A DNA stretch of 35,604 nt from a virus: positions 1 through 35,604 of the IMG/VR virus record IMGVR_UViG_3300046689_000598, one strand, 5' to 3'. Both the position numbers and the translations under genes were made by a program. The notes below the pieces were generated by a model, which saw only the letters and a program-made list of their open reading frames with translations, was not told where the DNA came from and did no database searches. Positions within the stretch are counted from its first letter, which is position 1. Every line of letters begins with the position of its first letter. Below, piece after piece: positions 98-21,838 of the stretch.

Positions 98-253
98 CTA
101 ACCAAAGGTCTCCCTGGCCTTCTCGATCAACGCGCGGACCATGATGGTCCCCAGCACACCGGCGAGCAGCCAGAGGGCCAGGGAGACGATCAGCGCGACC
201 GTCCACCCGACCCACTTAGGCCAAGGCTTAGTCGTCGTGCGCGGGGCACGCAT
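98..253 (-). CDS. Single-pass membrane microprotein (51 aa)
   Basis: A 51-residue protein starts MRAPRTTTKPWPKW, has one hydrophobic helix (about residues 15-38, WTVALIVSLALWLLAGVLGT) and ends in a charged tail (ALIEKARETFG). The ATG at 253 lies inside the end of the upstream 334-aa gene, overlapping it out of frame by 26 nt, which suggests translational coupling. The basic N-terminus predicts a cytoplasmic N-terminus by the positive-inside rule. The function is unknown. Small phage membrane proteins of this kind include holins, antiholins and superinfection-exclusion proteins, but nothing in the sequence separates these options. Confidence 0.6.
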   Translation of the reverse strand: MRAPRTTTKPWPKWVGWTVALIVSLALWLLAGVLGTIMVRALIEKARETFG

Positions 254-1232
254 AGTGCGGGTCGACCTTGCACGCCGGGACGTTCTTGTGCGTCGAGCGG
301 TGCGGGCGGTCGCGGTAGATCACCTGCGGCGGGTTGGGCACCGGGGGCATCACGTACTGCGGCGCGGGGGCCGGAGGCACGTTGATCACCACCGGGCTGA
401 TCGGCGCGGGCGGCGGCACGACCACGGCCACCTCGTACTTCTGGCGGCAGTCCTGGCCGACCGCGGCGTAGGCGGCCGCGACGTCCTTGTCCTGGCACAT
501 CAGGGCGCGGGCGGCGGCGCGATCCCCGAGGGTCTGCGCCATTTCGCGGGCGTTCAGACGGCGCACGCACTGGCTGTCGTTCCACGTCGTGCCCAGCGTG
601 CCGCCGAAGCCCATGACGCTGATCCCACCGCTGGTCGAGCCCATGCAGGTCTCGGTCAGGGTGGTCGAGAGCGCCGGGGCGTACACCTGCGGCGTGGTCT
701 CGAGCTTGGTCTTGGACGGCGTGGTCTGGTTGAAGGTGATGCTCTGCGCGTTGCCCTGGTTCGACGCGTTCGGGTTGGCCGTGGCCGAGGACGTGGACGC
801 CCCGGTGGTGGCCGTGCCACCGGTGGCGGTGGAGTTGGCCGTCGAGGACCCGCCCGCGCCGCCCTCTGAGCGCGAGACGGACCCGGAGAGCGAGACCGCG
901 TTGCTGTCGCTGTCGCTGGTGGCCGTCTGCGGGCCGACGGTGGTCGGGCCGATGGTGATGGGGCCGTTGCCGCCGTTGAAGTTGGTGTTGTTGCTCTGCG
1001 ACGCCGCGCCAGAGTTGGAACCGGACGACACCGGGCCGACCTGCACGCCGCCGTTGTTGGCCGACGAGCCGCCGTTGACGTTGGCGTTGGTGTTCTGCGC
1101 GGTCGCGCCGGACTGGCTGTTGGACTGCGCAGCGTCCCCGGTGACCGGGCCATTGGTTTGCTGCGCGAGCGAGATCGAAGGGAGCGACAGGGCCGCGATG
1201 CAGGCGGCCGTCAGCAGGAGACGGGTGTTCAT
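228..1232 (-). CDS. Exported Ser/Asn/Gly-rich repeat protein with Cys-containing C-terminal domain
   Basis: The 334-aa protein has a classical Sec signal peptide (MNTRLLLTAACIAALSLPSISLA, cleavage near residue 23). About 140 low-complexity residues rich in Ser, Asn, Gly, Thr and Gln follow (NNGG, GPVSSG, ITIGPTTVGP). A more ordered C-terminal half has LTETCMGSTSGG, a CVRRLNAREMAQ segment and several spaced cysteines that could form disulfides in the periplasm or outside the cell. The tail is Pro-rich, then basic. The start is supported by GGTGGGG upstream. I recognise the C-terminal style from other phage hypothetical proteins but know no function; surface remodelling or a virion-associated role is inference. 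An intrinsic terminator lies immediately upstream of the start codon. Confidence 0.8.
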   Translation of the reverse strand: MNTRLLLTAACIAALSLPSISLAQQTNGPVTGDAAQSNSQSGATAQNTNANVNGGSSANNGGVQVGPVSSGSNSGAASQSNNTNFNGGNGPITIGPTTVGPQTATSDSDSNAVSLSGSVSRSEGGAGGSSTANSTATGGTATTGASTSSATANPNASNQGNAQSITFNQTTPSKTKLETTPQVYAPALSTTLTETCMGSTSGGISVMGFGGTLGTTWNDSQCVRRLNAREMAQTLGDRAAARALMCQDKDVAAAYAAVGQDCRQKYEVAVVVPPPAPISPVVINVPPAPAPQYVMPPVPNPPQVIYRDRPHRSTHKNVPACKVDPHYACPAHDD

Positions 1233-2769: not shown

Positions 2770-3468
2770 CTAGGCCGTCGCGAACGCCTGCTTGCGGCGA
2801 CGCAGGGTCATGCCCATGCCGCCGAAGCCGACGATCATCAGCGCCCAGGAAGCGGGCTCCGGCACGCCGCCGGTCGGGTTGATCACCGGGCAGTCGATCG
2901 TGCAGGTCCCATTGGCGATGAACTCGTGCTCGGTGCCGAACGAGAACTGCAACCCCTTGAAGTGCAGGTTGCTGGCCCCCAGCAGGTCGAAGGTGAAGGT
3001 CGCCGTCCCCAGGATGTAGGGGTTGAAGTTGGCAAACCCGCCGTTGGTCGCCCCGAAGCTGGTCGAGGCGATCATATCGGTCGGAGACCCGCCGCCCAGC
3101 GCGTCGAGGTAGACGTTGCCGGACACGAGGCTGATATCCCAGCGGGTCGGGTCGCCGGGAACCAGGGTGACGACACCGCCGGAGGTGACGTTGGCCAGCT
3201 GGCCATCCTGGGTGAACGCGTCCACGTCGGTGACGTCGGTGGTGAAGTCCAGCAGCACGTCGCTGATCGCCTGATTGGAGGCGAACATGTCGGCGGTGGT
3301 GTTGGTGACGGTCAGGGTCACGTGGTCGCCGACAGTGGTGTAGGTGGCCTGGGCCGAGACGTTGTTGCCGTTGGCGTTCGGCGTCGCGTTGAGGATGAAG
3401 GTGGTCGCACTGGCCGACGTGGCCAGCAGCGTGGCGGCGCAGGCAAGCGCCAGGGTCTTGAGATACAT
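2770..3468 (-). CDS. Exported PEPxxWA-CTERM domain protein
   Basis: The 232-aa protein begins with a Sec signal peptide (MYLKTLALACAATLLATSASA, cleavage near residue 21). A beta-rich, Asn/Thr-rich mature domain of about 175 residues follows. It ends in the tripartite PEP-CTERM sorting signal: VPEPASWALM (PEP at 203-205, Trp at 208), a hydrophobic helix (about 208-222) and a basic cluster RRRK (223-226). In bacteria this tail is recognised by exosortases (EpsH/Xrt), which process it and send the protein to the cell surface or exopolysaccharide. The PEPxxWA form is typical of alphaproteobacteria. AAAGGGGGC precedes the ATG at 3468; a longer in-frame extension is Arg-rich and rejected. No exosortase is in the window, so a host enzyme would have to act on it. 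A role at the host envelope is inference. Confidence 0.85.
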   Translation of the reverse strand: MYLKTLALACAATLLATSASATTFILNATPNANGNNVSAQATYTTVGDHVTLTVTNTTADMFASNQAISDVLLDFTTDVTDVDAFTQDGQLANVTSGGVVTLVPGDPTRWDISLVSGNVYLDALGGGSPTDMIASTSFGATNGGFANFNPYILGTATFTFDLLGASNLHFKGLQFSFGTEHEFIANGTCTIDCPVINPTGGVPEPASWALMIVGFGGMGMTLRRRKQAFATA

Positions 3469-3545
3469 AGGAAGTGCCCCCTTTGGGTGGTTTCTAGCTA
3501 GAGTACAAGAGACTAGCTGGACCGTAGGGGCAAGGCAACCCCAAC

Positions 3546-3585
3546 GCAGCCCTCCCCCGGGCGTGTCGGACAAGGGGAGGGCTGC
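3546..3585. terminator. Perfect 12-bp hairpin, possible leftward terminator
   Basis: GCAGCCCTCCCC (3546-3557) pairs perfectly with GGGGAGGGCTGC (3574-3585) around a 16-nt loop. It lies between the leftward Ig-like gene (ends 3626) and the leftward PEP-CTERM gene (starts 3468). The minus-strand continuation (GTTGGGGTTG) is only weakly T-rich, so termination is plausible but not certain. Confidence 0.5.
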
Positions 3586-3625
3586 CCGGGTAGGTCCCCG
3601 CCAGCTGGACGGGGATCGTGGTCTC

Positions 3626-4165
3626 TTACGCCTTGGGCTCGCCGGTGGGCGGCAGGCCCTGGCCCGGGCGCGGCGGCGCACCGCCCGGGAGCGAGTTGTC
3701 GATGCCCGGCTGGTCGCCCGGCAGGCCCGCGTCGGGGCGGCCACCGGCTTCCTGGCCGAAGCCCGGGTCGACCGGACGCTGGCCGTTGGGCAGGCTGTTG
3801 TCGATCGAGCCGCCGGACCCGCCGGGCAGGCTGTTGTCGACGCCCGGGCCGCCGGGACCGACCACCGGGGTGATCTCGCCACCGATGGCCACGCCCTTGG
3901 CGATGACGGTGATGGACACGGTGGCCTCGACCTCGGTCATGCCCTCGCCCAGGTCGCTGTCGGCGACGGCGGTGATGACGGCCTCACCGGCGCTCGGGCC
4001 AGCGGTGATGGTGGCCAGCTTGTCGTCGGTGGCGTTGGCCACGACGGTGGCGACGGCCGGGTTGGACGACAGCCAGTCGACGGAGCCGTCGACGTCGGCG
4101 GGGTTGCCCGAACTGTTGACGAACTGGACGGCGACGTCGACGGCGTGGGAGGCGAGCAGCTTCAT
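3626..4165 (-). CDS. Ig-like domain protein with DNSLP repeats
   Basis: The 179-aa protein has one bacterial Ig-like (Big_2-type) beta domain, about residues 8-90, with the recognisable WLSSNPAVATV ... ATITAGPSAGEAVITA pattern. A Gly/Pro-rich tail carries three copies of (V/I)DNSLP(G/N)G at about 109-116, 121-128 and 155-162. There is no signal peptide. GGAGA stands just upstream of the ATG at 4165. Phages often put Ig-like domains on virion surfaces, where they bind weakly to carbohydrates; that this one is virion-borne is inference, since it is not in the structural arm. Confidence 0.75.
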   Translation of the reverse strand: MKLLASHAVDVAVQFVNSSGNPADVDGSVDWLSSNPAVATVVANATDDKLATITAGPSAGEAVITAVADSDLGEGMTEVEATVSITVIAKGVAIGGEITPVVGPGGPGVDNSLPGGSGGSIDNSLPNGQRPVDPGFGQEAGGRPDAGLPGDQPGIDNSLPGGAPPRPGQGLPPTGEPKA

Positions 4166-4208: not shown

Positions 4209-4556
4209 TCAGGACTGTGACGCGCGCAACCGTGCTTCGTACTCGGCGATGGCCTGGACGCAGGCGGCCCGGCCCTTGGTGGTCAGGTCGTAGACGTTCA
4301 TCCTGACCACGCGTCCCGACGGGTTGCGGCGCGGCAGCTTGCCGATGCAGTAGACGTGGCCTGCCTGCACGAGGGCGGCGGTGCGCGGCGAGAAGCTGTC
4401 GCGCGGCATATCCCACTGGCGGGCGATCTCGGTGGTCGAGAGCGCCCCCAGCCGGTACAGCGCCATGACGTAGCGGGCGGCCAGCTTGAGGGTCGGCGCG
4501 TTGGCGGCGGCCTGATGGCTGGTGGCCGGGTCGGTGGTCCTGGCGCGGCCGGGCAT
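4209..4556 (-). CDS. Winged-helix DNA-binding protein
   Basis: The 115-aa protein (MPGRARTTDPATSHQAA ...) has a helix-turn-helix-like core (YRLGALSTTEIARQWDMPRDSFSPRTAALVQAGHVY) and a wing-like beta hairpin (RRNPSGRVVRMNVYDLTTKG). The TDPxTSHxAA opening is common in small phage winged-helix proteins. The start at 4556 was chosen because it overlaps the stop of the upstream gene as TGATG, showing coupling; a longer in-frame extension is rejected. It is a candidate regulator of this operon or of early/late switching, and might bind the palindromes described elsewhere. That link is inference. Confidence 0.7.
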   Translation of the reverse strand: MPGRARTTDPATSHQAAANAPTLKLAARYVMALYRLGALSTTEIARQWDMPRDSFSPRTAALVQAGHVYCIGKLPRRNPSGRVVRMNVYDLTTKGRAACVQAIAEYEARLRASQS

Positions 4557-4909: not shown

Positions 4910-5152
4910 CTAGGTCGGGTCCTCGCCCGGGAGGGTGGCGGGCACGGCCTTGGGCTTGCGCGTGCGGCCACCGCCGCGGGAGGCCGAGCCGCCCTTGGAC
5001 CCGGCCGACTGGGCAAGGTCACGGTTCTTGGCGAACGACCGCTTCTCGGGCGGCACGGAGCCGCCACCCTTGCGGGCGATCTCGCGGCGGCGTTCGGGGC
5101 TCATGGCGGCGAACCCGCGACGGGCGCGGGGCTTGATGATGGTCTCGGTCAT
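4910..5152 (-). CDS. KGG-repeat (stress-induced motif) protein
   Basis: The 80-aa protein carries the pattern RGFAAMSPERRREIARKGG, then SVPPEKRSFAKNRDLAQSAGSKGG, matching the KGG short repeat (stress-induced bacterial acidophilic repeat family). The C-terminal tail is basic and Gly/Arg-rich. A strong AAGGAG lies 8-13 nt before the ATG at 5152; the longer in-frame form is rejected because it would span the palindrome and lacks an RBS. The biochemical role of KGG proteins is not established. A palindrome (5184-5203) and a possible promoter lie directly upstream, so this gene may start its own transcript. Confidence 0.8.
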   Translation of the reverse strand: MTETIIKPRARRGFAAMSPERRREIARKGGGSVPPEKRSFAKNRDLAQSAGSKGGSASRGGGRTRKPKAVPATLPGEDPT

Positions 5153-5171: not shown

Positions 5172-5203
5172 GGCATAGCTTGATGATTGCGCCAGCGCAA
5201 TCA
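5172..5203 (-). promoter_or_regulatory. Palindrome copy 1 overlapping a possible promoter
   Basis: TGATTGCGC-CA-GCGCAATCA (5184-5203) has 9-bp arms around a 2-nt centre. It shares the core ATTGCGCyAGCGCAAT with 7093-7112 and 7168-7191. On the minus strand TTGCGCT within it is followed after 14 nt by GCTATGCC (5179-5172), a partial match to the sigma-73-like -35/-10 pair. A repressor bound here could block transcription of the KGG gene. Confidence 0.5.
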
Positions 5204-5770: not shown

Positions 5771-6181
5771 TCAGAACCACAGATACCGCAGGGGACACCT
5801 GCGCCACCGCTGCTCGATCGCGGCGAGGATGTGGTCGGTCACGTCCGGCTGGCCGGTCAGGAGGGCGTTCTCGATCAGGAGGGCGCGCAGCAGGCGATAC
5901 TTTCGCCTGCTGATGGTCTTGTCGGCCAGCTGGTTGATGATCGGAGACGCGCGTTCGTAGATGTGCTCGGGGACCATCAACTCCCACGCCTGGGCGAAGG
6001 CGAGGTGCAGGGTGGGCGGCGTGGGTTTTGACCGCAGGCCGAGCATGCCTGCGATACCGGGCAGGAGGTGGCGGTGGCCATAGCGCACCTGTACGCCCAC
6101 GGCGATGCGCGAGCACTCGTCGGAGATCGACAGGATCGGCGCGTGAGGACCCTGGCGGGGTTGCTGGCTGGGGAGGGTCAT
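5771..6181 (-). CDS. Unrecognised protein (136 aa)
   Basis: The 136-residue protein overlaps the upstream gene by ATGA (6178-6181), a hallmark of coupled translation. It has an N-terminal polar stretch, a segment RIAVGVQVRYGHRHLLPGIAG, and a helical C-terminus ending LRYLWF. There is no signal peptide, membrane helix or known motif. The function is unknown. Confidence 0.6.
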   Translation of the reverse strand: MTLPSQQPRQGPHAPILSISDECSRIAVGVQVRYGHRHLLPGIAGMLGLRSKPTPPTLHLAFAQAWELMVPEHIYERASPIINQLADKTISRRKYRLLRALLIENALLTGQPDVTDHILAAIEQRWRRCPLRYLWF

Positions 6182-6624
6182 TGGGCCTTCGCCTTCTTCT
6201 GCGGCAGATGCGTGGGCAATGGTCGCTCACCGAAGGCCACAAGCCAAGCTGAGACGATCATCTTCTCCGCGGTCTCGCGGATGAACCTGTTCTGGCTGTA
6301 GGCGTGCGCCTGATTGAAGCGACGGACGGCGTCGGGATCGACCACCGGGATGATCGGTACGCTGGACGGTGCGCCATTGACGTATGCGTAGTAGAGCATC
6401 TGAGTGTCCGGCTTCGCATAGGTGTGGCCACTGGCGTTGATGATGCGGGTCATAGCGCCGAGCCGGGTCTCGCCCCACCTATCGGCCAGCTGCGCGATCA
6501 TGTTCCGTGCGATGTGCGAGACGTAGATGTTGATGCGTTTACGCGGCGCTAACTTACGCGCGATGGATTGGCGCGGCGTAGACTGCGTTGCGACGTGCCT
6601 AAGATAGCGTTTAGACGGCGGCAT
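6178..6624 (-). CDS. Unrecognised basic protein, first gene of leftward operon
   Basis: The 148-aa protein has a basic N-terminus (MPPSKRYLRHVATQ ... ARKLAPRKR), a middle INIYVSHIARNMIAQLADRWGE and a C-terminal helix (FNQAHAYSQNRFIRETAEKMI) with a Lys-rich end. The composition suggests nucleic-acid binding but no fold is recognised. No strong Shine-Dalgarno precedes the ATG. It is the promoter-proximal gene of a unit running from 6624 to 4209. A TTGACT/GCTAAAAG pair sits 45 nt upstream, but with short spacing. Confidence 0.6.
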   Translation of the reverse strand: MPPSKRYLRHVATQSTPRQSIARKLAPRKRINIYVSHIARNMIAQLADRWGETRLGAMTRIINASGHTYAKPDTQMLYYAYVNGAPSSVPIIPVVDPDAVRRFNQAHAYSQNRFIRETAEKMIVSAWLVAFGERPLPTHLPQKKAKAQ

Positions 6625-7092: not shown

Positions 7093-7112
7093 TGATTGCG
7101 CCAGCGCAATTA
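7093..7112. repeat. Palindrome copy 2
   Basis: TGATTGCGC-CA-GCGCAATTA has a perfect 7-bp inverted core ATTGCGC/GCGCAAT. It lies 21 bp upstream of the -35 element of the rightward promoter at 7133. Confidence 0.6.
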
Positions 7113-7132
7113 AACCGACAACGCATTTTAGC

Positions 7133-7158
7133 TTGACGCATCTGTCAAACGCTAGACG
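7133..7158 (+). promoter_or_regulatory. Sigma-73-like promoter between two palindromes
   Basis: TTGACGC (7133-7139) matches the Caulobacter housekeeping -35 consensus exactly, and after 11 nt GCTAGACG (7151-7158) matches 6 of 8 of the -10 element. A start near 7165 would place palindrome copy 3 at the first transcribed bases and copy 2 just upstream of the -35, a typical two-operator layout. No rightward gene follows before the convergent 294-aa gene, so the product may be a short RNA. Confidence 0.5.
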
Positions 7159-7167
7159 CGTGGGTTA

Positions 7168-7191
7168 TTTGATTGCGCTAGCGCAATCAAA
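7168..7191. repeat. Perfect 24-bp palindrome (copy 3)
   Basis: The arm TTTGATTGCGCT is followed directly by its exact reverse complement. The core ATTGCGCTAGCGCAAT is shared with 7093-7112 and 5184-5203. All three copies are intergenic. This is a probable binding site for a dimeric regulator; as RNA it would form a stable hairpin. Confidence 0.7.
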
Positions 7192-7206: not shown

Positions 7207-7239
7207 AAAAAAAGCCCCTCGCGTTTCCGCGAGGGGCTT
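7207..7239 (-). terminator. Intrinsic terminator of the 294-aa gene
   Basis: Read leftward, AAGCCCCTCGCG (7239-7228) pairs perfectly with CGCGAGGGGCTT (7223-7212) around a 4-nt loop and runs into a T tract (7213-7207). It begins 17 nt after the stop of the leftward 294-aa gene. Read rightward the same hairpin lacks a good T tract. Confidence 0.9.
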
Positions 7240-7255: not shown

Positions 7256-8140
7256 TTAGGCGGCTTTCTTAATCGTGTGGAGCCGCTTGGCTTCCTGACG
7301 CGCCTTGGCGACGTCCAAGCCGGGTTCAAACGCTTCCGTCGACGCCAGATCAATCAGCCATGCGGCCAAGCGATCAGGGAAGCGTTCCGCCGCAATGGCG
7401 AGACGCAGCGCGGCGTTGGCGTCCGTCGGGAAGATCGCCTCTGCGGCGACAAGCGCCGGACGGGCGGCGTTGTTACCGCCTTCCGCCTTGGCCGCGTCAC
7501 CTGCGGAACCGTCCGCGTCCGTCCCGTTCAGCGCGGCCGCCTTGGCGTCCGTCGCAGCCTTGGCGGCCGCCAGCTTGGCCGCCTTGTCAGCGGCCGCCTT
7601 GGCCGCCTTCTCAGCGTCCGTCAGGAGCTTGGCCCCCGAGCGCGGCGAAAGCGTCCCGTCCGGTTCGTGGGCCATAACCCACGTCCCGTCAGGATACTTG
7701 GCGTCGCGAAGCAACGGGCGAACCCGTTCGCAGTAGGAACCGGCGCTTTCGCCCGCCAGAGGGTCGGAGAAGTGCGGAACCTTCGGAACCGCCTTGTCGC
7801 CTTCCCAGTCGAGCGGACGCGTCATCGCAGCGATGACAATCGTCTTCACGCGGCTGACATGCGAGGCGACCGAAGACGCGGCCAAATACTTGCCCGCTTC
7901 CTTAGTCACCTTCACCGCCAGTCCCTTCGCCCAAACATCTTCCGTCAGGAGAACCCCGGCAATCGCCGTGGTCGCCTTGCGGATGTTGCGGAGAAGGTCG
8001 CGCTCAATCCGAGCGCGTGCGTCACGATCAAGCTTGAACGCGTGGCCAATGCCCTTCGCCAGCTTGGCCGCGTCATCATCCGAAAAGGGGATGATGACGG
8101 AAGCGGCGGGGGCGGGGGCGTTGTTCGTTTGCGTGGTCAT
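7256..8140 (-). CDS. Unrecognised 294-aa protein with Ala/Lys coiled coil
   Basis: The 294-aa protein has an N-terminal helical domain of about 150 residues (FSDDDAAKLAKGIGHAFKLD; RKATTAIAGVLLTEDVWAKG; a VIAAMTRPLDW segment). A long Ala/Lys/Asp-rich helical stretch (about 180-225, EKAAKAAADKAAKLAAAKAA) and a C-terminal helical domain follow. AAGGAAAC lies before the ATG, and a strong terminator follows. It is a single-gene unit with a roughly 500-bp leader or regulatory region. I do not recognise the family. Its isolation next to an origin-like island makes a replication or control role an attractive but unsupported idea. Confidence 0.75.
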   Translation of the reverse strand: MTTQTNNAPAPAASVIIPFSDDDAAKLAKGIGHAFKLDRDARARIERDLLRNIRKATTAIAGVLLTEDVWAKGLAVKVTKEAGKYLAASSVASHVSRVKTIVIAAMTRPLDWEGDKAVPKVPHFSDPLAGESAGSYCERVRPLLRDAKYPDGTWVMAHEPDGTLSPRSGAKLLTDAEKAAKAAADKAAKLAAAKAATDAKAAALNGTDADGSAGDAAKAEGGNNAARPALVAAEAIFPTDANAALRLAIAAERFPDRLAAWLIDLASTEAFEPGLDVAKARQEAKRLHTIKKAA

Positions 8141-9243: not shown

Positions 9244-9972
9244 ATGCCCGACCTCGCCCTCAGCCCGATCCTCTACTTCGACCCGCAACTCGTGGCCGAG
9301 TTGGCGCTGGGCGCTGAGCCGCCGCTGACCATCGCCGAACGCTATGGCCTGGACGTCGACACCTACGACCACTTGGCCGCCCAGCCGTGGTTCAACGAGC
9401 TCGTCGCCCGCAAGCGCACAGAATTCCATGAAGATGGAGTTCTTTTCACGGCCAAGGCAGGCATGATGGCCGAGGCGCTGATCACCCGGCTGTTCCAGCA
9501 GTCCATGGCCGGGAGCCTCGCCGCCCCGCTGATGGTCGAGATGGCCAAGCAGCTGTCCGACATCGGGCGGCTCAAGCCCTCCTCTTTGGCCGCGGCCGCC
9601 GCGTCCGGCCCACCCTTCCAGATCAACATTCAGGTCAACGGGCTGGACGTGGTCCACTCCCACGCGCCGCAGGAGCTTGTCCCGGTGGCCGAGGTCGCGA
9701 CCGAGATGGTCATCGACTTCGCGCCCGGGCTGCCGCCCCCGCCCCCTGCGCTCAAGGTGCCCGACTTCGACCTGCGCCCCAGCGCCCTGGTGGGCACGGC
9801 GCAGGCACAGCATGCGGCGCGGGGTGTCGACACCCCGCACCCAAGCGCATCCTCTGCGGTGGCCCAACACGCCGCAGGCGCGTCCCCGGCTGGACCATCC
9901 CGGTCCCTCGACACGCAGCCGGGGGCGTCGTCCCCTGCCGTCGGCCTTCCCACCCGGGCTCGCCCGGCGTAA
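9244..9972 (+). CDS. Probable terminase small subunit
   Basis: The 242-aa protein sits before the large terminase. The N-terminal half has LTIAERYGLDVDTYDHLAAQPWFNELVARKRTE, a helix-turn-helix-like recognition segment, and a helical stretch (AKAGMMAEALITRLFQQSM) as in small terminases that bind the packaging site. From about residue 160 the sequence turns Pro/Ala-rich and looks disordered. No clear Shine-Dalgarno precedes the ATG. The assignment rests on position and style; a regulator or other early structural protein is the alternative. Confidence 0.6.
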   Translation: MPDLALSPILYFDPQLVAELALGAEPPLTIAERYGLDVDTYDHLAAQPWFNELVARKRTEFHEDGVLFTAKAGMMAEALITRLFQQSMAGSLAAPLMVEMAKQLSDIGRLKPSSLAAAAASGPPFQINIQVNGLDVVHSHAPQELVPVAEVATEMVIDFAPGLPPPPPALKVPDFDLRPSALVGTAQAQHAARGVDTPHPSASSAVAQHAAGASPAGPSRSLDTQPGASSPAVGLPTRARPA

Positions 9973-11887: not shown

Positions 11888-11911
11888 GCAGGACGTGTCG
11901 ACACGTCCTGC
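11888..11911. terminator. Perfect 24-bp palindrome between terL and portal
   Basis: The arm GCAGGACGTGTC is followed directly by its exact complement. It lies 5 nt after the terminase stop and just before the portal Shine-Dalgarno (AGGAAA, 11917-11922). No T tract follows, so it may reduce rather than stop transcription, or protect an mRNA end. Confidence 0.5.
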
Positions 11912-20930: not shown

Positions 20931-21389
20931 ATGACGATGCTCGATGACGCACTCACGATCACCGGCCGCGTGCAGCTGGAATTGCGTGACGAGTACGGTC
21001 GGCTCAAGCAGCTGACTGAGGTTCCCAACCTCGTCCACACCATGGGCAAGGGCGTGATCGCCGCCCGGATGGTCGCTGCCCAGGCGTTGCCTGCCGTGTC
21101 CCACATGGCGGTCGGCACTGGCAGCATCGCGCCGGGGGCAGGCGATCAGACTTTGCAGGCCGAAGTCGCCCGGATCGCGCTCACCTCGACGAACGTGGCC
21201 GCAGCAGTGATCACCTACGGCGCGTCGTTCGGACCGGGCGTTGGCACTGGCGCGCTGCAGGAGGCGGGCTTGTTCTGTAACGGGACGCCAGGGTCCGGTC
21301 TGCCCGGCCTCGCGCGCACCACCTTCGCGGTGATCAACAAGGCTGCCGGGGACACGCTGAACGTCAGCTGGACCGTGACGATTGGATAG
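20931..21389 (+). CDS. Small repeated beta protein, copy A
   Basis: The 152-aa protein has the pattern LELRDEYGRLKQLTEVPNLV, TMGKGVIAARM, SHMAVGTGS, GVGTGALQEAGLF and a final DTLNVSWTVTIG. This architecture recurs widely in phage tail regions without a firm function. CCGGAG lies upstream of ATGs at 20931 and 20937. It is clearly paralogous to the next gene. Confidence 0.75.
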   Translation: MTMLDDALTITGRVQLELRDEYGRLKQLTEVPNLVHTMGKGVIAARMVAAQALPAVSHMAVGTGSIAPGAGDQTLQAEVARIALTSTNVAAAVITYGASFGPGVGTGALQEAGLFCNGTPGSGLPGLARTTFAVINKAAGDTLNVSWTVTIG

Positions 21390-21397
21390 GTGACCTG

Positions 21398-21838
21398 ATG
21401 CTCCACGCGCCCATCAAGCTGACCGGTGCTCTTGAGCTTCGCCTCGAACGCGAGGACGGCAGCATCGAGGTCACCACGGTCGAGAACCTCGTCCTGACCC
21501 TGGGCAAGGGCGTCGTCGCTGATCGCATGAAGGCGGTGCCGACGACGTCGCACTTCACCCACATGGCGGTCGGCACCGGTTCAAGCCCGGTCGGCGTCGG
21601 CGACATCGGACTGGCCGCCGAGATCGCTCGCGTCGTGCTGGGCGCTGCCACGGTTGCGGCGGCGGTGGTCACCTACACCGCGCAGTTCGGACCTGGGGTC
21701 GGCACCGGGGCGCTGCAGGAGGCGGGCATCTTCAACGCCGCCGGTGGCGGGGTGGAGCTTTGCCGTACTCTGTTCGCCATCATCAACAAGGCGGCGGGTG
21801 ACACGCTCAATGTGACGTGGACCGTCACGGTCGGGTAG
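21398..21838 (+). CDS. Small repeated beta protein, copy B
   Basis: The 146-aa paralogue of the previous gene has the same blocks: LELRLEREDGSIEVTTVENLV, LTLGKGVVADRM, THMAVGTGSS, FGPGVGTGALQEAGIF, DTLNVTWTVTVG. It starts 8 nt after the previous stop (GGTGACCTG upstream). The tandem copies have diverged most in the middle. They could be subunits of one hetero-oligomer, or copies diversified for different targets. Confidence 0.75.
   Translation: MLHAPIKLTGALELRLEREDGSIEVTTVENLVLTLGKGVVADRMKAVPTTSHFTHMAVGTGSSPVGVGDIGLAAEIARVVLGAATVAAAVVTYTAQFGPGVGTGALQEAGIFNAAGGGVELCRTLFAIINKAAGDTLNVTWTVTVG

Follow-up and report, generated by a model that had tools for sequence, protein, structure and literature searches.

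What are the symmetric sequences that stand between the genes of this phage for, and which protein reads them? The window, i.e., the whole 35.6-kb record that was searched for palindromes, contains the core ATTGCGCYAGCGCAAT three times (5186-5201, 7095-7110 and 7172-7187), always in intergenic DNA (Table 1). A scan of the whole window allowing up to three mismatches returned six strand-matches, which are these three sites and none besides, against an expectation of 0.43 strand-matches in shuffled sequences, with 0 of 100 shuffles reaching six. In simulated sequences that kept the trinucleotide composition, any 7-bp arm with a spacer of 0-6 occurred at most 1-2 times per genome. Given the shuffle expectation and this simulated maximum, the three palindromes are beyond chance, which confirms the three intergenic copies, one of them a perfect 24-bp palindrome, that a sequence-only reading of this DNA had pointed out; the motif scan that it had proposed thus added no further copy within the window. 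The 18-bp form of the motif was also found in seven other viral contigs, at one site each, so it is not a general host site. An Rfam search gave a single match, which was below threshold.

Table 1. Features of the window that bear on the palindromes and on their candidate regulator.
Feature	Position	Strand	Remarks
Winged-helix protein	4209-4556	-	weak MarR_2; rejected as common regulator
KGG-motif protein gene	4910-5152	-	Pfam PF10685, 7e-10; site in leader in the window phage and G001
Operator-like palindrome TGATTGCGCCAGCGCAATCA	5184-5203		9-bp arms, centre CA
Operator-like palindrome ATTGCGCCAGCGCAAT	7093-7112		core 7095-7110, 7-bp arms
TTGACG...TGTCAA, proposed promoter between palindromes	7133-7148		no standard promoter found
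Perfect 24-bp palindrome TTTGATTGCGCTAGCGCAATCAAA	7168-7191		about 20 bp past the 294-aa gene's terminator
Intrinsic terminator of the 294-aa gene	7212-7239	-	12-bp stem, T run
294-aa protein, best candidate cognate regulator	7256-8140	-	orphan, fast-evolving family

The window covers only part of the genome of an uncultured phage of about 61-64 kb: a second contig from the same collection extends it at 99.98% identity, and the relatives found through the terminase are contigs of about 61-64 kb. Those relatives that are near-complete or long hold 6-13 copies each of a palindrome of similar size, and each lineage has its own palindrome sequence. The form in the window is ATTGCGC-2-GCGCAAT. Among the relatives we found AATTGCC-4-GGCAATT in G001 (11 copies), mostly ATTGCAC-1-GTGCAAT in G004 (11 copies) and G006 (5 copies), ATTGCT-4-AGCAAT in G005 (6 copies), GTTTACCCCGGGGTAAAC in G003 (10 copies), ATTGCC-3-GGCAAT in G007 (4 copies) and G013 (8 copies), GGTTAAACGTTTAACC in G008 (4 copies) and a palindrome with an ATTAAC arm in G015 (13 copies). 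More distant phages carry TATTAACT-2-AGTTAATA (L039), GATTAACC-2-GGTTAATC (L056) and TAATCCC-2-GGGATTA (L066). The circuit of three sites that had been proposed for the window is therefore too narrow, as the relatives show a genome-wide set. The sites lie almost wholly in the leftward block, where they are spread singly through the leaders of about 30 kb of operons.

The positions of these sites are conserved between relatives and their sequence is not. The matchable positions are the KGG leader, the control region and the leader of an AAA+ gene, and each has a different palindrome from genome to genome. In the KGG leader, the window site stands 32-33 nt upstream of the ATG at 5152, and the orthologous position in G001 (39196) carries AATTGCC-4-GGCAATT. 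One AAA+-gene leader has five different palindromes in five genomes, 15-18 nt before the same start codon. The perfect palindrome of the window has an equivalent site in G001, G003, G004, G005, G006, G007 and L016; in G001 (41240), the site past the terminator of the 294-like gene corresponds to those past the 294-aa gene in the window. The second window copy past this terminator is matched in G006, where the two sites of the pair are 77 bp apart from core start to core start, as in the window. The ATTGCGC palindrome itself was not found at the equivalent places in G001, whose terminase is 97% identical. Conservation in relatives, as the sequence-only reading had it, thus holds for position and symmetry but not for the exact sequence, and to take missing sequence conservation as evidence against the sites would mislead. 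Terminase relatives in bacterial genomes had no operator set in the stretches examined, and our literature search on dispersed palindromic operators found nothing on this phage group. We conclude that the palindromes are probably the landing sites of a phage regulator before many early genes, and that close relatives rewrite the sequences together, apparently in parallel with the rapid evolution of a phage protein not described before. A second palindrome type, centred on GTGTCGACAC, occurs at 9819-9838 and 11888-11911 of the window and twice more in G007, and in none of the other genomes examined.

The surroundings of the sites suggest the step at which such a regulator would act. Ten genomes contributed 72 sites, 38 of which have a Shine-Dalgarno sequence and start codon 6-59 nt downstream (median 22.5), against a background of 11%, and only four of the remaining sites lie inside a same-strand ORF. 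A TTGACA-17-TATAAT-like promoter (10-12 of 12 matches) is present upstream of 11 of 57 sites (background 0.2%), and for most of the others no promoter of this kind lies within 120 nt. The -10 element of these sigma-70 promoters ends 40-49 nt before the site, meaning that the site is transcribed. Both arrangements, in a leader or between cistrons and downstream of a promoter, point to a control after initiation, and we regard most sites as transcribed-leader or intercistronic operators. The earlier view of the palindromes as promoter operators does not agree with this arrangement in the relatives. The promoter proposed between two of the window palindromes is not supported: its TTGACG is present at 7133-7138, but a sigma-70 scan found no promoter close to any palindrome of the window (comparison with the alphaproteobacterial sigma-73 form was by eye), and the matching interval of G004 and G006, read by eye, showed no TTGACG element.

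Within a genome, the arms of the palindrome are fixed and its centre and outer flanks vary. At the variable positions the two halves match each other no more often than chance predicts, the 4-nt centre shows no conservation, and the outer base in G001, a C or T in each half-site, is symmetric in 4 of 11 sites against 5.7 expected. These unmatched positions speak for DNA bound by a protein dimer rather than for an RNA stem. The proposal that the palindromes are operators of a dimeric regulator looks right, the dimeric state very probably so. By eye, a hairpin is also seen between the -10 element and the operator in the leaders at G001 ~26170, G003 ~21640, G004 ~25850 and G005 ~14730; its stem changes, apparently in a complementary way (CAGTTGGGGGATTGTCTCCCAACTG in G004), and it is perhaps a separate RNA element.

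The best candidate for the regulator is the 294-aa protein, a better one than the winged-helix protein suggested by the sequence-only reading, which had named the 294-aa protein for a binding assay only. A gene of the 294-aa family stands between sites in G001, G003, G004, L019, L037, L039, L045 and L056, the homologues in L037, L039, L045 and L056 being profile-detected, and L066 has between its palindromes a protein of similar architecture that is below profile detection. In the window, the sites are on one side of the gene only, and none lies immediately upstream of it, unlike in G001, G003, G004 and L019. Across eight close genomes, operator difference correlates with the divergence of the 294-aa family (rho -0.64, Mantel p 0.003), and not with that of the terminase (0.13-0.17) or of portal, KGG and other clean families. 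Two further families with p < 0.05 in the Mantel test were set aside after inspection: the matches of f2324 are short, scattered and to non-orthologous frames, and f228 is a low-complexity protein with spurious matches in two genomes. The comparison of G001 with the window follows the same pattern, with terminases 97% identical, 294-like proteins 34% identical and different operators. In the terminase loci, the 294-aa family co-occurs with recurrent palindromes (Fisher p 0.001, uncorrected for relatedness and with some duplicate phages). L031 has a protein of the family and no clearly recurrent palindrome in 4 kb. The family was not found in G010, in about 5 kb upstream of the terminase, and its absence from G018 is uninformative as that contig starts close to the terminase.

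The 294-aa family had no match in Pfam, PHROG or PDB sequences and no relative in phage records, and a pattern search for further relatives came up empty for the window protein and, for two other members, returned nothing but phages that were known already. The N-terminal part of the protein is predicted to be a compact helical domain (pLDDT 80, pTM 0.78), and a fold comparison gave no significant match and no recognisable DNA-binding fold. As neither fold nor family is recognisable, it is from the association that we infer binding of the palindromes by this family. The winged-helix protein cannot be the common regulator, since the gene-by-genome table places it in the window phage and, among 12 other genomes, in G007 only, while at least 10 of the 12 carry palindromes. 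The 148-aa protein at 6178-6624 was rejected as it occurs in the window phage only, according to the same table.

Another phage protein could bind the same dispersed operators, e.g., an 89-aa LacI/HTH_3-like protein or the product of a gene in the unsequenced early block, which we consider rather unlikely. The 89-aa protein is conserved, has a weak HTH match, and its gene has a site about 34-45 nt upstream of the start in G001, G003, G004, G005 and G013/L212; moreover, the gene of the binder may sit in the part of the phage genome missing from the window. However, the putative recognition helix of the 89-aa protein is nearly invariant (GRVTCSYWLNGHKQPH) among phages whose operators differ widely, G010 and G018 have homologues but no recurrent palindromes, and the contig that continues the window has no site in the 82 nt upstream of this gene; the 89-aa protein was thus rejected as the regulator. 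It seems distinctly improbable that the palindromes act as RNA, either as a hairpin next to the Shine-Dalgarno sequence for an RNA-binding regulator or as an element of mRNA processing or stability. Every site could form a stem of about 6-7 bp, and the sites belong to transcribed leaders, many of them no more than 30 nt from the start codon. Ahead of the 89-aa gene, G+C-rich arms lengthen the palindrome, which in G003 is followed by a T run, and L215 has an unrelated TTCG-loop hairpin at that place. A stem that is fixed within a genome and a loop that is free are nevertheless the reverse of usual RNA ligands, the outer symmetric positions pair no more than by chance, and copies are also present past terminators.

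Sites of partition, replication or packaging (parS-like or iteron-like) would explain multi-copy palindromes, some of which are in the A+T-rich non-coding region adjoining the 294-aa gene. This is very improbable for sites that occur singly through the operon leaders rather than in clusters, and the 294-aa family, having no Pfam match, has no ParB domain. That the palindromes are mobile or selfish repeats (REP-like) with no regulatory role is hardly credible: they are intergenic, multi-copy and uniform within a genome, as such repeats would be, but an insertion would not swap copies in place, and here the palindrome at an orthologous position, 15-18 nt from the same start codon, differs from lineage to lineage.

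On balance, we think it somewhat probable that the window palindromes are part of a larger set of dispersed operators, bound by a dimer of the 294-aa family that is autoregulated, blocks elongation and has changed its specificity together with its operators. Each subunit of the dimer would read a half-site of about 7 bp, the bound repressor would block elongation into the early operons in the manner of a roadblock or stoperator, and the 294-aa gene would be autoregulated through the sites flanking it, with the specificity of the protein diversifying alongside the operators. Some sites, however, lie past a terminator, where a roadblock to elongation has no obvious use. Under this model, several more copies of ATTGCGCnnGCGCAAT are expected in leaders of the missing left part of the window phage. 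If true, nature would provide at least seven pairs of protein and operator in related genomes, with operators that changed together and matched positions that stayed, making testable the long-standing question of how a one-to-many regulator shifts its specificity without losing its regulon. The model would also point to a DNA-binding family without known relatives and suggest a mode of early-gene control for an uncultured group of phages on which the literature searched gave no such account. Tentatively, and with more doubt than confidence, we suggest a new class of regulator: an orphan all-helical family that binds symmetric sites in the transcribed leaders of the whole early genome and stops elongation, with the entire operator set rapidly and jointly re-specified between close relatives into immunity-like specificity groups, in phages mostly without a detectable integrase.

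Among known systems, the stoperators of cluster A mycobacteriophages come closest in function, and the present system may work like them. In L5 and TipsytheTRex, one repressor acts on numerous sites dispersed over promoters and short intergenic spaces, and it is proposed to stop both initiation and elongation (PMC6550527, PMC9283540). A repressor site near the repressor gene is conserved, and related phages differ in motif and repressor (PMC6550527, PMC9283540). The phages studied here likewise have multiple copies of one site (6-13), mainly intergenic and in transcribed stretches (38 of 72 before a Shine-Dalgarno sequence and start codon). The L5 sites are 13 bp long, asymmetric and oriented, number more than 20 per genome and are bound by a monomer repressor with a recognisable HTH, whereas those described here are symmetric palindromes, about 6-13 per genome, and the 294-aa family is an unrelated orphan with no N-terminal HTH match. 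An integrase domain was found neither in the window nor in eight of the nine relatives searched; among these ten records, several of them incomplete, only G015 has a tyrosine integrase. With symmetric sites, an unrelated protein and an integrase in G015 only, the system is not a member of the cluster A stoperators.

A cultured distant relative, Rhizobium phage RHph_TM3_14A (L227, MN988472; terminase 35%), has 38 copies of GTTACCTnnnnAGGTAAC, each agreeing at 12 or more of the 14 positions, over 50 kb (from 2067 to 47457). It differs in that, by eye, about half of the copies are inside annotated genes, and a profile search detected no homologue of the 294-aa family in it. The promoter-early stem-loops (PeSL) of T4-type phages are mobile terminator-promoter cassettes; they too are palindromic elements associated with early promoters between genes, but here the palindrome follows the promoter, with a single sequence fixed in each genome. 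The operators of lambda overlap two promoters, while the sites described here are dispersed and downstream of promoters. Lambda CI is a dimeric repressor on symmetric operators (PMC9283540), and the 294-aa protein would resemble it as a dimer on symmetric operators and, as we infer, in its autoregulation.

Some further genes of these phages deserve mention. The ORF at 2770-3882 (- strand) has a C-terminus that matches the PEP-CTERM sorting motif (E 5.5e-6), which is unusual for a phage, and the one at 228-1232 (- strand) encodes a 334-aa low-complexity protein with a signal-peptide-like start, as read by eye. The 2454-aa G001 protein, at 1931-9295 in L202, matches in its C-terminal part a DarB-like antirestriction PHROG. 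In the window, the stretches 21027-21275 and 21485-21733, which are 458 bp apart and 72-74% identical in DNA, probably represent a duplicated gene in the rightward block.
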